From Corynebacterium glaucum (GTDB taxonomy: Bacteria; Actinomycetota; Actinomycetes; Mycobacteriales; Mycobacteriaceae), in assembly GCF_002287505.1 (NCBI RefSeq), contig NZ_CP019688.1, forward strand, positions 1,042,674 to 1,106,673: a stretch of DNA of 64,000 nt. Direction: 5' to 3'. Shown piece by piece: positions 24,283-52,007 of this stretch; the first letter of the stretch is position 1; every line of letters starts with the position of its first letter. The translations under genes were made by a program, and so were the position numbers. Below the pieces are notes generated by a model, which was given only the letters and a program-made list of their open reading frames with translations, had not been told where the DNA came from and did no database searches.

Positions 24283-24587
24283 ATCTGTACCCAGCTCAAT
24301 TTGGGACGTGAGTCACAAGGGGGTGGGGGATGGTGGGTGCAGCCCACCCCTGTCACGTGAAAACCCCTCGCCACCTGTTAGAGTAGCCGCTGGGTTTGCT
24401 TGAGGTAGGGGACGGCCCGCATGCCGGGCTGCGCCACGCCTTCGAGGTCCATCCCCTGTTCCGCGGTAGCAGATGTGCGACGGAGTCCGCCGCGGAATCA
24501 GTTGTCTTTCAAGACGTCCATCGCACCGCATTCTTCCTGGATGCGGCCCGAGAACGGGAGAGAACGCTGAGCGTTACAACTTTGGCC
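24283..24587 (+). promoter_or_regulatory. Promoter and structured 5' leader of the atp operon
   Basis: Gene-free. In order: ACGTGA 24306-24311 pairing with TCACGT 24353-24358 around an inner GGTGGG/CCCACC stem (24332-24348); a -10 box TAGAGT at 24379-24384; a GCCCG/CGGGC hairpin (24415-24429); and TTCCGCGG 24459-24466 pairing with CCGCGGAA 24490-24497. This predicts a leader of about 195 nt. I see no known riboswitch class. Confidence 0.5.
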
Positions 24588-29908: not shown

Positions 29909-31444
<1,536 letters not shown>

Positions 31445-48761: not shown

Positions 48762-49936
48762 TGGGCCACCTCCCGCGGAGCATCGGTTCTGCGCAGCGGA
48801 ATCGTCGCCTCTGTCACCCAGGTGTTGGTCTCGGTAGGGGCGGCGGTGACGAAGCCGTCGATAAGCGATGCTCTCTCCTGCATGCCTTGCAAACCGGTGC
48901 CGGGTGAGGGGAGAGTTCCGCGCGGCGGAATCGGGTTGGTTGTACGGACTATGACGTTGTCCTCGTTCCAGTCGACAGTGAGCTGGGCGGTGCCGGTGCC
49001 GTGTTTGAGTGCGTTGGTGAGCGATTCCTGGATGATGCGTTGCACCGCGAGCGTGGTGGCGGGGGCGAGGCCCGCGGGTGGTTGGCCGTGGGTGGTGCAG
49101 TCGACGTCGAGTCCGCCGGCGCGGCTGGTGGCGACGAGCTGGTCGATGTCGAGGTTTTCGACGAGCGGGGTGACGGGGCGCTGCTCTGCACCCCGGAGCA
49201 GGCCAACGACGCCGCGCATTTGCTTCAGGGAATCGCGGCCGACCTTGGCAATAGTGCGCAGAGCTTCGTCTTTGGTTTCGGTGCGAGCGGCGTTGTCGGG
49301 TGCGCCGGCGTAGAGTGCGCCGTCGGCCTGCGCGACGATAACGGTGAGCGAGTGGGTGACAATGTCGTGGATCTCGCGGGCAAGGTGGGCGCGCTGTTCC
49401 TCGGATGCGCGCTCGAATTCTTCCCGCTGGCGTTCCAGCCGTGCCTGGAGCTCTTTTTCTGCGGTCTCTTCGGCGCGGCGGCGCAGTTCACCGAAGAGGC
49501 TCGCGGCGGTGAGGAGCGTAACGCTCCAGGCGATATACGGGGCTCGCTCTGCCAGTGTCAGCGCGGTGAGCGTCGGTGAAATGAGAGTCAGTGCGACGAT
49601 GTCGCCGACAAACAGGGCGGCGGTAATCAGGTCGCGGTGCGGCGAGGGCAGGTGGCGGCGGGCGACGTAGGCGGCAAAGGGTGCGAGCGCGACCGAGCCG
49701 GTGGGCAACGTTGGCCTGAACGCGCAGACTGCGAGCGCTGCGGTGATAGTTGCGACGGTGAGTAGCGGCCACCGCCCGCGCGTGAACGGAGCTGCGAAAG
49801 CGCAGAGCAGGAGCACCACATCTAGCGTGATGTGGCCTGAGGGTTGGAATCCGCCGAGCAAGCATGCAAACGCGAGTCCTGCGGCGAGAGCCAGGTCTCG
49901 GTATCGGGGCCAGCGAAGCGACGTTTGCTCATGCAT
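48758..49936 (-). CDS. Sensor histidine kinase (HisKA_3 type), 392 aa
   Basis: Four to five N-terminal membrane helices (residues about 14-148) with almost no outside domain, then a coiled coil, the phospho-acceptor His190 (AREIHDIVTHSLTVI) and an HATPase domain. The membrane-embedded sensor without a large loop is like intramembrane kinases that detect cell-envelope stress, often together with peptide exporters. GGATGG precedes ATG 49936. A copy of the 11-mer lies at 48856-48866 and a TTCCGCGC palindrome at 48916-48930. Confidence 0.88.
   Translation of the reverse strand: MHEQTSLRWPRYRDLALAAGLAFACLLGGFQPSGHITLDVVLLLCAFAAPFTRGRWPLLTVATITAALAVCAFRPTLPTGSVALAPFAAYVARRHLPSPHRDLITAALFVGDIVALTLISPTLTALTLAERAPYIAWSVTLLTAASLFGELRRRAEETAEKELQARLERQREEFERASEEQRAHLAREIHDIVTHSLTVIVAQADGALYAGAPDNAARTETKDEALRTIAKVGRDSLKQMRGVVGLLRGAEQRPVTPLVENLDIDQLVATSRAGGLDVDCTTHGQPPAGLAPATTLAVQRIIQESLTNALKHGTGTAQLTVDWNEDNVIVRTTNPIPPRGTLPSPGTGLQGMQERASLIDGFVTAAPTETNTWVTEATIPLRRTDAPREVAQ
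48916..48930 (-). repeat. TTCCGCGCGGCGGAA palindrome inside the kinase gene
   Basis: The exact reverse complement of the copy at 14718-14732. Confidence 0.55.
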
Positions 49937-49944
49937 GCCATCCC

Positions 49945-49950
49945 ACGCTA
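49945..49950 (-). promoter_or_regulatory. -10 box of the kinase/regulator operon
   Basis: TAGCGT on the minus strand, 8 nt past the start codon region, with GGATGG between it and the ATG. Confidence 0.35.
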
Positions 49951-49974
49951 GTCACCGCTCAGGCCGATCACGTC

Positions 49975-49986
49975 ATACTCCAGTAT
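49975..49986. promoter_or_regulatory. ATACTCCAGTAT palindrome upstream of the kinase
   Basis: ATACT and AGTAT flank CC. It lies 39 bp upstream of the kinase ATG, roughly at the -35 position, and shares ATAC-N4-GTAT with 48050-48061. Confidence 0.5.
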
Positions 49987-50003
49987 CATCTCGCGCTGTC
50001 GTG

Positions 50004-50097
50004 TAGTGTACCTGTGACCCGATTGGCTCTGAGTGGCTGCTTCAGCCATGAAACGTGAAAGTAGCCCCGAACTTGGAAGTTCGAGGCTACTTCTTCG
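50004..50097 (+). ncRNA. Candidate small RNA upstream of the Abi/HEPN gene
   Basis: A -10-like TAGTGT (50004-50009) is followed by a 6-bp hairpin TGGCTG-CTT-CAGCCA (50034-50048). Next comes a long hairpin, GTAGCC-C-CGAACTT with AAGTTCG-A-GGCTAC (50061-50090), extended by A-T pairs and followed by TTCTTC. The second hairpin looks like an intrinsic terminator, giving an RNA of roughly 80 nt. No ORF is inside. It lies in the same orientation as the Abi gene, 65 bp before it. The role as a partner RNA is inference. Confidence 0.45.
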
Positions 50098-50159
50098 TAG
50101 GTCCCTGAGGGAGGTGTTACCACCCACGATCCTCAGCGGCTCTGTGCTACATAGGCTAC

Positions 50160-50861
50160 ATGGCCGAAGCCTCAAATTCAATCAGTACTGAAGACGCGTG
50201 GCGAATTCGATCGGTGTTGAGTCCACCCCGGCTCAGCACCTATGAGCCTCCATCAGTCACTGCTAAACCTGGCGAGACCTCGGTCCAGGCCGCTGTTCGA
50301 CTTTATCAGTGGAACGCGGAGGTTAGTGCGGCGTTCTGGCCAGTCATCAACGTATTTGAGGTCGCAGTCAGAAACGCCATCTCGACAGTAATCAGTCAAG
50401 TACACGGTCAAGACTGGGCCCATGATCCGAGTTTCATTAATAAGCTTCCTAATCCTACGGGGCCGGTTTACAACCCCCGCAAGGATCTGAAAAGGATGGC
50501 TGATCTCCACAAAACGACCGGCAAGGTTATCCCTGAGCTGAAAATGAGCTTCTGGGAGAAAATGTTAACTAAACGCCACGACGGGGACTTCTGGAGCCTC
50601 TACATGAACGTAGGTTTTCCCTACCTTCCTCCCGGATCCCATCAAGCCCATCGAAATGAGCTCCGCAGTAGGTACGAACGGGTGCGAAAGATGAGAAACC
50701 GGCTTGGCCATCACGAGGCCATTTTCGATTCGACTCGCTTTAGTCTTCACGCGATCTTCTTCGACATGGTCCAAGTTCTTGAGTGGCGTGAACCTGAAGT
50801 GAGCGATTGGGTGATGCAATTCGAGTTAGTTCAACAGACGCTCACGAAAAGACCAACGTAG
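50160..50861 (+). CDS. Abi-family protein with HEPN ribonuclease motif, 233 aa
   Basis: Matches the Abi-like family (LYQWNAEVSAAFWPVINVFEVAVRNAI and RKMRNRLGHHEAIF signatures). The HEPN catalytic motif RX4H is R179 to H184 (RNRLGH), followed by H185 and E186. Such proteins are RNases used in abortive phage infection. The gene is clearly AT-richer than its neighbours, a sign of transfer. It sits alone between the kinase operon and mnmA. ATG 50160 follows TACATAGGCT and may be leaderless. No protein antitoxin is adjacent. Confidence 0.82.
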   Translation: MAEASNSISTEDAWRIRSVLSPPRLSTYEPPSVTAKPGETSVQAAVRLYQWNAEVSAAFWPVINVFEVAVRNAISTVISQVHGQDWAHDPSFINKLPNPTGPVYNPRKDLKRMADLHKTTGKVIPELKMSFWEKMLTKRHDGDFWSLYMNVGFPYLPPGSHQAHRNELRSRYERVRKMRNRLGHHEAIFDSTRFSLHAIFFDMVQVLEWREPEVSDWVMQFELVQQTLTKRPT

Positions 50862-50881
50862 TTTGGCCCAAACGCGGATTT

Positions 50882-50910
50882 TTGGGGACTTGAAGTTGGC
50901 TGACTACACT
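50882..50910 (+). promoter_or_regulatory. Promoter of mnmA
   Basis: TTGGGG (50882-50887), 17-bp spacer, TACACT (50905-50910), then 8 nt to ATG 50919: leaderless. Confidence 0.6.
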
Positions 50911-50918
50911 GCCGCACC

Positions 50919-52007
50919 ATGCGAGTACTGGCAGCAATGAGCGGGGGCGTGGACTCCTCCGTCGCTGCCGCGCGCCTTGTCGAGGCGGGGCACGACGTTA
51001 TCGGCGTCCACCTCGCGCTGAGCAAAGATGCGCAACAGACACGCGAGTCGGCCCGCGGTTGCTGCTCCCTAGAAGATTCCGCCGATGCGCGCCGGGTCTG
51101 CGACAAACTCGGCATCCCGTTTTATGTGTGGGATTTCTCGGACCGCTTCAAAGCGGACGTTATCGACGATTTCGTCGATTCCTACGCCCGCGGCGAGACC
51201 CCCAACCCGTGCCTGCGCTGCAACGAGAAGATCAAGTTCGCTGCCTTGCTCGACCGCGCGGTCACGCTCGGTTTCGACGCCATCGCGACCGGCCACTACG
51301 CCATCATCGACAGCGACGGCAACCTCCGCCGTTCCGCTGACCCGCTGAAGGACCAGTCCTACGTGCTCGGCGTGCTCACCCGCGACGAGCTTGACCGCTG
51401 CATCTTCCCGGTCGGCGACACCGAGAAGCCGCAGATCCGCGAGGAAGCCGCTCGCCACGGCTTCTCCACCGCGTCGAAACCGGACTCCTACGACATCTGC
51501 TTCATCCCCGACGGCAACACGCAGGCTTTCCTCGGCCGCTCCATCGGCATGCGACCTGGCATGATCAAGGACACCGACGGCAACGAGCTCAAGGAGCACG
51601 ACGGCGCGTTCCAGTACACGATCGGCCAGCGCAAAGGCCTGAACATCCGCGTGCCGGCCGCCGACGGCAAGCCGCGTTACGTCACTGATGTCGACGCCGC
51701 GACCGGCACCGTCACCGTTGGCCCGCGCGAGGCGCTGAAGGTCAGCGAAATCACCGCGGACCGTCTCAAGGTCCTCCACCCCGCAATGGAAGGCGAGTTC
51801 GAGGCCCTCGTTCAGATTCGCGCGCACGGGGGAGTCGTCGGGTGCAGGGCGCGTATCGACGGCTCGTCGATGACGCTCACACTCCACGAACCGCTCGAAG
51901 GTGTTGCCCGCGGTCAGGCCGCAGTGTTGTACCTGCCGGATCCGGACGGGCAGGGCGACATTGTGCTTGGCTCAGGCACGATCTGCGGCACCGCTTCAAC
52001 CGCCTAG
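50919..52007 (+). CDS. mnmA: tRNA-specific 2-thiouridylase MnmA, 362 aa
   Basis: Places sulfur on U34 of tRNA-Glu, -Gln and -Lys. The PP-loop is [11 protein letters not shown] (residues about 7-17); catalytic cysteines are in [12 protein letters not shown] and in YDICFIPDG. The central and C-terminal beta domains are complete. Sulfur probably comes from the cysteine desulfurase at 42427. Confidence 0.95.

Follow-up and report, generated by a model that had tools for sequence, protein, structure and literature searches.

A predicted divergent RNA partner of an AbiF-type HEPN gene in Corynebacterium glaucum, a sister RNA element in Actinomycetes, and related RNAs behind tRNA genes of Streptomyces phages

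Does the Abi-like gene carried by a 64,000-nucleotide stretch of the Corynebacterium glaucum chromosome (hereafter the window; the genome holding it is a single contig of 2.52 Mb) have an RNA partner, and on which strand would this RNA be made? A sequence-only reading had placed such an RNA on the plus strand, upstream of the gene and running towards it. The comparisons reported here point to the other strand. The features of the locus are the following.

49924..50901, no strand: accessory insert between a histidine-kinase-like and an mnmA-like gene (both named from reading the ORFs), delimited by comparison with genome G061.
50050..50145, minus strand: predicted divergent small RNA of ~96 nt (start A 50145, end approximate), from the z-score of its fold and the layout in relatives.
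50059..50092, minus strand: 3' hairpin of that RNA, terminator-like, 15-16 bp, perfect on this strand, with a weak U-rich tail UUUCACGUUUC, from folds.
50105..50136, minus strand: core hairpin, with outer helix CUGAGG/CCUCAG, inner helix GGUG/CACC and a conserved CCUCC, from seven loci and from alignment A4 of ten.
50145..50153, plus strand: possible extended -10 TGCTACATA, 6 nt before the ATG, from sequence only.
50153..50158, minus strand: -10 box TAGCCT, separated by 7 nt from ACAGAGCC, where the RNA is predicted to start, from sequence and a Rhodococcus plasmid homologue.
50160..50861, plus strand: gene for an Abi_2 / AbiF-like HEPN protein (P0001, 233 aa), from the ORF, Pfam and a structure model.
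50694..50711, plus strand: HEPN RX4H motif, R179-H184 (R179-N-R-L-G-H184), from an alignment of 53 sequences.

The gene is real, and its product is an Abi_2 protein with a fold modelled as PbAbiF-like. P0001 passes the curated cut-off of Pfam PF07751 (Abi_2, or AbiD-AbiF family; 31.1 vs 25.6 bits, E 3.5e-7, residues 39-189) and matches PD-T4-5 (E 3e-10) and AbiD (E 6e-7) in PADLOC; no match was obtained against NCBIfam. R179, N180, R181 and H184 are invariant among the 53 aligned sequences, as in the R-N-x-x-x-H site of HEPN proteins. The intact RX4H site read earlier from the ORF was therefore confirmed, and so was a GC content lower than that of the neighbours (53.8% in 50001-51000 vs ~65% on either side). 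The AlphaFold2 model of P0001 (mean pLDDT 94.5) has as its best structural match PbAbiF, solved with its bound ncRNA (8vz6_A; rmsd 3.5, 205 of 233 residues aligned), at a Z of 11.4, in a range (below Z ~13) where helical proteins may share merely a common arrangement. The second-ranked structure was a Csm6 HEPN protein (Z 6.7). Foldseek also ranked 8vz6 first, with a probability of 1.00 but an E of 0.013, and gave no match in the PDB at E<=0.001. At the sequence-profile level, the similarity of P0001 to PbAbiF is marginal (E 0.34).

The gene lies in an accessory segment. Genome G061, of the same species, aligns with the window as far as 49923 and resumes at 50902; the ~977 bp in between are a different, unrelated stretch. 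That stretch, a small insert at the equivalent chromosomal site (L037, G061:C1:1068300-1069700), has a membrane-like ORF of 169 aa, and the site is possibly a hotspot for small inserts. Elsewhere, the C. glaucum genome contains two canonical, longer Abi_2 genes, L127 (C1:1775993-1776580) and L061 (C1:1919685-1920302), the former with a co-directional abiF-like hairpin, CCCCCUC...CAAAUGAGAGGGGG. The window also holds, at 24455-24580, an ordinary known element, the atpB RNA (RF02916, 113.7 bits).

Upstream of the gene, the minus strand of 50050-50145 folds at -46.2 kcal/mol (z -5.67), with none of 200 shuffled sequences folding as well. When one 110-nt span was folded both ways, the minus strand reached -48.2 and the plus strand -41.9 kcal/mol, and one pair of the 15-bp hairpin reads as a C.A mismatch on the plus strand and as U.G on the minus strand. 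The box TAGCCT is followed after 7 nt by ACAGAGCC in the window, and TACGGT is followed after 7 nt by ACAGAGCC in a homologue on a Rhodococcus plasmid (L264, protein 50% identical over 97%); because the two agree, the start is predicted at 50145. Two observations count against the RNA: the U-tract after the 3' hairpin is weak, and the minimum-energy fold of L264 keeps the 3' hairpin and lacks the core hairpin. A scan upstream of abi returned no consensus promoter or terminator on either strand. Altogether, an RNA probably lies on the minus strand, divergent from abi, from ~50145 down to 50050. Promoter geometry and helix quality suggest this strand opposite abi, unlike the co-directional layout of RCd22, the RNA partner of a Clostridioides difficile AbiF. 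The abi mRNA itself is possibly leaderless, starting from the extended -10 TGCTACATA and overlapping the RNA promoter, since this box sits 6 nt before the ATG; leaderless mRNAs make up 33% of C. glutamicum mRNAs (PMC3890552). If this plus-strand -10 is real, position 50153 belongs to both promoters, and their use would be mutually exclusive.

What, then, becomes of the plus-strand transcription unit proposed at 50015-50097, from a -10-like box through a 6-bp hairpin to a 15-bp hairpin acting as terminator? Structured hairpins do exist upstream of the gene (50004-50110 on the plus strand folds with z -2.54, 2 of 200 shuffles being as good), and the unit that was to contain them found no support. 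Neither a sigma-70 promoter nor a terminator was detected there by the scanner, nor on the minus strand. The conserved -10 box sits on the minus strand, the putative terminator is perfect on that strand only, and no equivalent of the 6-bp hairpin (near 50036-50048) was seen by eye in the close relatives L003-L005. The hairpin that is common to relatives, at 50105-50136, had gone unmentioned. A plus-strand attenuator was rejected on helix quality and on the minus-strand TAnnnT geometry described below, and a plus-strand reading of the relatives' hairpins was dropped since their -10 boxes lie on the other strand. Membership of the Rfam abiF family was likewise ruled out: its model (RF03085) gave no match in 49900-50920 (E up to 10) or in the loci of 19 relatives (E up to 1), and it did find abiF in phage phiC2 (37.6 bits). 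Over 49900-50920 the Rfam matches listed were PinT (E 3) and COG3860 (E 6), both far under their cut-offs. The core of the sequence-only reading, an Abi/HEPN nuclease tied to a structured RNA that may restrain it, is thus upheld by comparative evidence, and its strand, position and Rfam class are revised.

This comparative evidence comes first from the same subtype of element. The divergent layout, with the same order of parts, is kept in six relatives: L003, L004 and L005, the closest in the genus (37-39% identical), L128 from the same family, L129 at the order level, and L253 from another family of the class. The L128 gene matches in two separate pieces (8-160 and 165-232), which counts against it. 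In these six loci and the window, with helices set by hand, the core and 3' hairpins read on the minus strand contain 153 Watson-Crick pairs, 7 G.U, 1 A.C and 2 other pairs, although the letters differ, and a stable hairpin follows the core hairpin in each of the seven. All seven loci have a TAnnnT beginning 16-22 nt ahead of the core helix, for a background of 3.9% per 8-nt stretch, this stretch having been chosen after the loci had been viewed. Plasmid homologues were read by eye. On alphaproteobacterial plasmids (L266 and L267, 43%) and in Zymomonas (L268, 36%), a GGC...GCCUCCC core with a following hairpin is seen, and the layout is divergent in the plasmid homologues L264 and L266-L268; a scan of L264 and L267 for consensus promoters and terminators gave none. 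The window subtype, as predicted from seven hand-aligned loci plus a few read by eye, is separate from the sister subtype described next.

Upstream of many other Abi relatives, we found a shorter minus-strand element, GAANGCCCCGG...CYCU...CCGGGGC, hereafter R1. Briefly, the R1 set consists of 41 sequences hand-picked from 76, omitting near-duplicates, misplaced picks and odd ones (L027, L094). Automatic choice of the best helix often took other helices, and CYCU (once also TGGTC) was later required near the 5' helix. In this set, standard pairs occupy 87.7% of pair cells (73.3% after shuffling), doubly changed cells number 99 (35.7 when shuffled, <=21 with the partner slid), and the covariation score is 0.410 vs 0.169. 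A minus-strand TAnnnT is present at -19..-16 from the first C of the outer helix in 40/41 loci (29 of them at -18; background 2.1%), the exception being L026. Base -5 is a G in 95% and is preceded by a pyrimidine in 95%. For C. glutamicum, the sigma-A box is given as TANANT, with an extended variant (PMC3890552), and the boxes found here agree with both. On the plus strand of the sister loci, the hexamer sharing the TA is followed 5-9 nt further by the first in-frame start in 20/39, and it ends in T in 18/40. Wobble counts in the R1 set (17 G.U vs 13 A.C) gave no clear preference for either strand. R1 was also discarded as a model of the window RNA, where it has no match; its sole match in the window is weak and lies elsewhere (31377-31420, minus strand, 14.5 bits, E 0.017).

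We then quantified how R1 is distributed and linked to the gene. As a model built from the 41 sequences, R1 matches 114 of 242 genomes of the genus (E<=0.01) and, at class level, 61 of 394 genomes and 34 of 137 genera of Actinomycetes (E<=0.001). When loci were collected by RNA first, a divergent abi-profile match was found near the RNA 5' end in 24 of the 28 loci fetched from Actinomycetes; 22 of these matches were near full length and two partial (L244, L250), and the four other loci had none. An abi-profile match on another side or strand was found in 0/28 (iE<0.01). These 28 loci omit the C. glaucum genome itself, G109 and matches for which there was no locus, and one of them, L228 (the same place as L145), was in the R1 training set. 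Conversely, among 89 genus loci found by protein, a set that includes the R1 training loci, 47 of 48 R1 matches (E<1e-4) lay on the strand opposite the gene, with L074 as the exception.

The layout may not be uniform across the family. In ten loci of another Abi subclade (L025, L086, L089, L103, L104, L113, L115, L116, L119 and L121), a minus-strand GAGCGUCGAUGUAGAUCGACGC-like hairpin followed by a terminator-like hairpin was seen by eye, and this GAGCGUCGAUGUAGAUCGACGC-like element looks like a further subtype. A different subclade (L018, L084, L085, L101, L102, L106) has a plus-strand, co-directional hairpin, in L085 with a -10-like box of its own. That L018, L084, L085, L101 and L127 of the C. 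glaucum genome appear co-directional counts against a general divergent rule, and RNA orientation may have switched within the Abi_2 family. No element was seen by eye in L111, L112, L114, L120 and L124.

If the RNA protects against the gene product, RNAs without gene should be tolerated better than genes without RNA. Among the 109 listed R1 matches of the genus (those with E up to 2.6e-8), a P0001-type match in divergent orientation lies within 700 nt of 51, and in 8 of these 51 it is partial or carries stops; the other 58 lack one, and no co-directional match occurs. Around the 58 listed RNAs without neighbour, an abi-profile piece (iE<0.05) was detected in 18, never spanning the profile in one piece, and nothing in 40. 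The TAnnnT at -19..-16 is kept in 41 of these 58. One of them, L191, may have kept an intact abi gene: its open frame runs to 225 residues and gives a partial match to abi. On the gene side, R1 matched at 45 of the 84 genus genes with an ORF >150 aa. For the 39 R1-negative genes, the nearest neighbour was R1-positive only in the case of L094, which itself has a weak R1 match (E 9e-4). Counting against this separation, L029, L083, L107 and L110 are 39-52% identical to the R1-positive L026 and have no R1 match; other hairpins are seen there by eye. Judged by these matches, RNA without gene is common in the R1 subclade and gene without RNA is rare. This asymmetry is the pattern expected of a toxin with its RNA antidote, to which decoy use or decay could contribute.

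Some of the RNAs without gene deserve mention. An R1-type RNA lies beside broken abi pieces in the C. glaucum genome (L154, G000:C1:8535-8590) and in the same-species genome G061 (L176, G061:C1:9918-9973). In six genomes (L171, L179, L184, L185, L186, L193), an R1 RNA without abi has a common start CATA(A/G)CCCC, similar flanks and not the usual promoter; these may possibly represent a separate conserved locus of solo RNAs.

Phage genomes provided another group of candidate, R1-like RNAs without gene. An exact R1-derived pattern matched three viral contigs; two further patterns gave no match in viral contigs. One of the three (L214) has the RNA and an abi gene apparently cut by a transposase gene. 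The two others are Streptomyces phages, Celia (identical) and, apparently, Salutena, where the R1 match starts at the base following the tRNA-Trp gene (L213 1395-1453 and L215 13322-13380); the ORFs listed nearby in Celia include none that is abi-like. A blastn search with the element (E<=0.01) retrieved 19 of 50,697 phage records, all from Streptomyces phages and corresponding to 14 distinct phages, with the gene absent. Of nine phages checked (L213, L215, L216-L222), eight have the element directly after a tRNA gene: tRNA-Trp in Celia, Salutena, Urza and Paolo, and tRNA-Phe in Puginator, Marav, Jevington and R4. Phage Paedore has an R1-like RNA without a tRNA there. The phage RNAs reach modest R1 scores of 18-28 bits (E 5e-4 to 3e-7); bulges or mismatches interrupt their outer helix, and the R1 hairpin is absent from their minimum-energy folds. 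By eye, the second helix is changed on both sides (CGAU/AUCG vs CAAU/AUUG). In genome G071, which belongs to the genus of the window, two tandem tRNA-Leu + R1 units were found (L209 861-915 and 3557-3611, 35.6 bits). A third RNA of this genome (L181 1699-1752) follows an apparent tRNA end without an ARAGORN prediction.

Taken together, we consider it likely that the window carries an AbiF-type two-part module, in which a minus-strand RNA is predicted to block a HEPN RNase toxin. The sequence supplies the gene, its predicted fold, a divergent structured element, the promoter geometry and the co-occurrence, so that a predicted structured non-coding RNA is linked to the toxin gene as expected of an RNA antitoxin. 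In such a module, the Abi_2 protein would be a HEPN-fold RNase toxin. The ~96-nt RNA would start on the opposite strand, 15 bp from the abi start codon, head away from it, and fold into the core hairpin, then the terminator-like hairpin. By analogy with AbiFr and RCd22, it would bind and block the toxin. Given the overlap of the two -10 boxes, RNA polymerase would probably start on one promoter at a time. When a phage takes over transcription or RNA turnover, the short RNA would run out and the nuclease would be released. For this module we infer transcription, RNase activity, binding, neutralisation, the trigger and phage defence.

Could the divergent RNA be real and yet serve another purpose? 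It might be a cofactor, bait or sensor needed by the HEPN protein, for example for phage recognition, or might regulate abi transcription only. Binding and inhibition of the toxin are assigned here by analogy, HEPN relatives include the RNA-guided Cas13 (PMC12737573), and overlapping promoters hint at transcriptional interference as well. However, RCd22 and AbiFr are described as behaving as antitoxins (PMC12373285, PMC12737573), and gene-less R1 RNAs are common whereas R1-subclade genes without R1 are rare, which would fit a gene that does harm on its own. We therefore regard this explanation as unlikely. A plus-strand RNA that ends at the 15-bp hairpin and, read in the direction of abi, attenuates it or serves as its antitoxin would recall RCd22 of C. 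difficile, likewise co-directional, where a terminator precedes the gene (PMC12373285); hairpins form on the plus strand too (z -2.54), and some other Abi_2 subclades look co-directional. We nevertheless find it very improbable, given a helix free of mismatches on the minus strand alone, a span that folds better on that strand, the TAnnnT geometry found there, a conserved core hairpin that falls outside the plus-strand unit, and the lack of a U run after the hairpin on the plus strand of L005. Finally, palindromes can serve as protein-binding sites and the RNA is a prediction, but inverted repeats acting as a DNA operator or insulator, or a chance structure without functional RNA, would be the least probable explanation, as compensatory changes preserve helices with asymmetric internal loops, the minus-strand TAnnnT is in place in 41 of the 58 listed elements without detected gene, and related elements come after phage tRNA genes.

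The RNA-antitoxin module thus favoured can be compared with known systems; the protein family and the principle of an RNA antitoxin are already known. The PbAbiF-AbiFr pair (PDB 8VZ6) likewise joins a HEPN Abi_2 protein having an R..H site to a small structured RNA, AbiFr, whose bulge nucleotides mediate the inhibition of PbAbiF (PMC12737573). By comparison, the window RNA is divergent, has a large 5' internal loop, the CCUCC and a terminator-like hairpin of its own, and does not match Rfam abiF; the proteins are related at the marginal level given above. AbiFCd-RCd22, from C. difficile prophages, also places an RNA of ~100 nt, made of hairpins and a terminator, beside an Abi_2 toxin that it neutralises in cis and in trans by direct binding (PMC12373285). 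Unlike the window RNA, RCd22 is described as co-directional, co-transcribed by readthrough and holding abiF motifs of RF03085 (PMC12373285); the Rfam scan made here finds one in phiC2. R1 did not match the RCd22 region of phiC2 (best 5.5 bits, E 0.44).

The fold of ToxN differs from the HEPN fold of the window protein. A region of phage sk1 protecting against AbiF was reportedly described by Rince in 2000. Phage PhiTE is reported to escape ToxIN, a type III system, through antitoxin mimics named pseudo-ToxI (PMC3475682); as here, the antitoxin of a ribonuclease is an RNA and the phage bears a mimic without the toxin, whereas the mimic-like RNAs found here come after a tRNA gene. An abiF RNA has also been noted in cyanophage S-CREM1, its role being unconfirmed (PMC12197685). 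This case shares with ours an Abi-linked RNA motif in a phage genome, but the motif is Rfam abiF, the host phage is a cyanophage, and the passage on it names no tRNA link. These two precedents make the logic of phage mimics plausible. Tentatively, and with a confidence that stays a little under even, we propose an unrecognised actinobacterial class of divergent RNA antitoxins for AbiF-type HEPN nucleases, countered by phages with tRNA-fused mimics that tRNA 3' processing would free; the antidote would also exist in chromosomal or prophage form, as the tandem tRNA-Leu units of G071 and as many of the RNAs without gene. In the openly available journal literature we found no published report of the divergent layout, the RNA architecture or the tRNA-linked phage copies, and the main text of the C. 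glutamicum small-RNA paper (PMC4046766) contains none of the words abortive, abi, phage and HEPN.

AbiF-type systems have been proposed as ancestors of Cas13 (PMC12737573), and two experimentally studied AbiF-type RNA partners were found in the literature. A divergent RNA class present across Actinomycetes and, by eye, on alphaproteobacterial plasmids would offer many natural pairs for studying the control of HEPN nucleases by RNA. The phage copies, for their part, predict that Streptomyces phages carry RNA antidotes behind their tRNA genes, which would give one testable reason for the retention of tRNA genes by phages.
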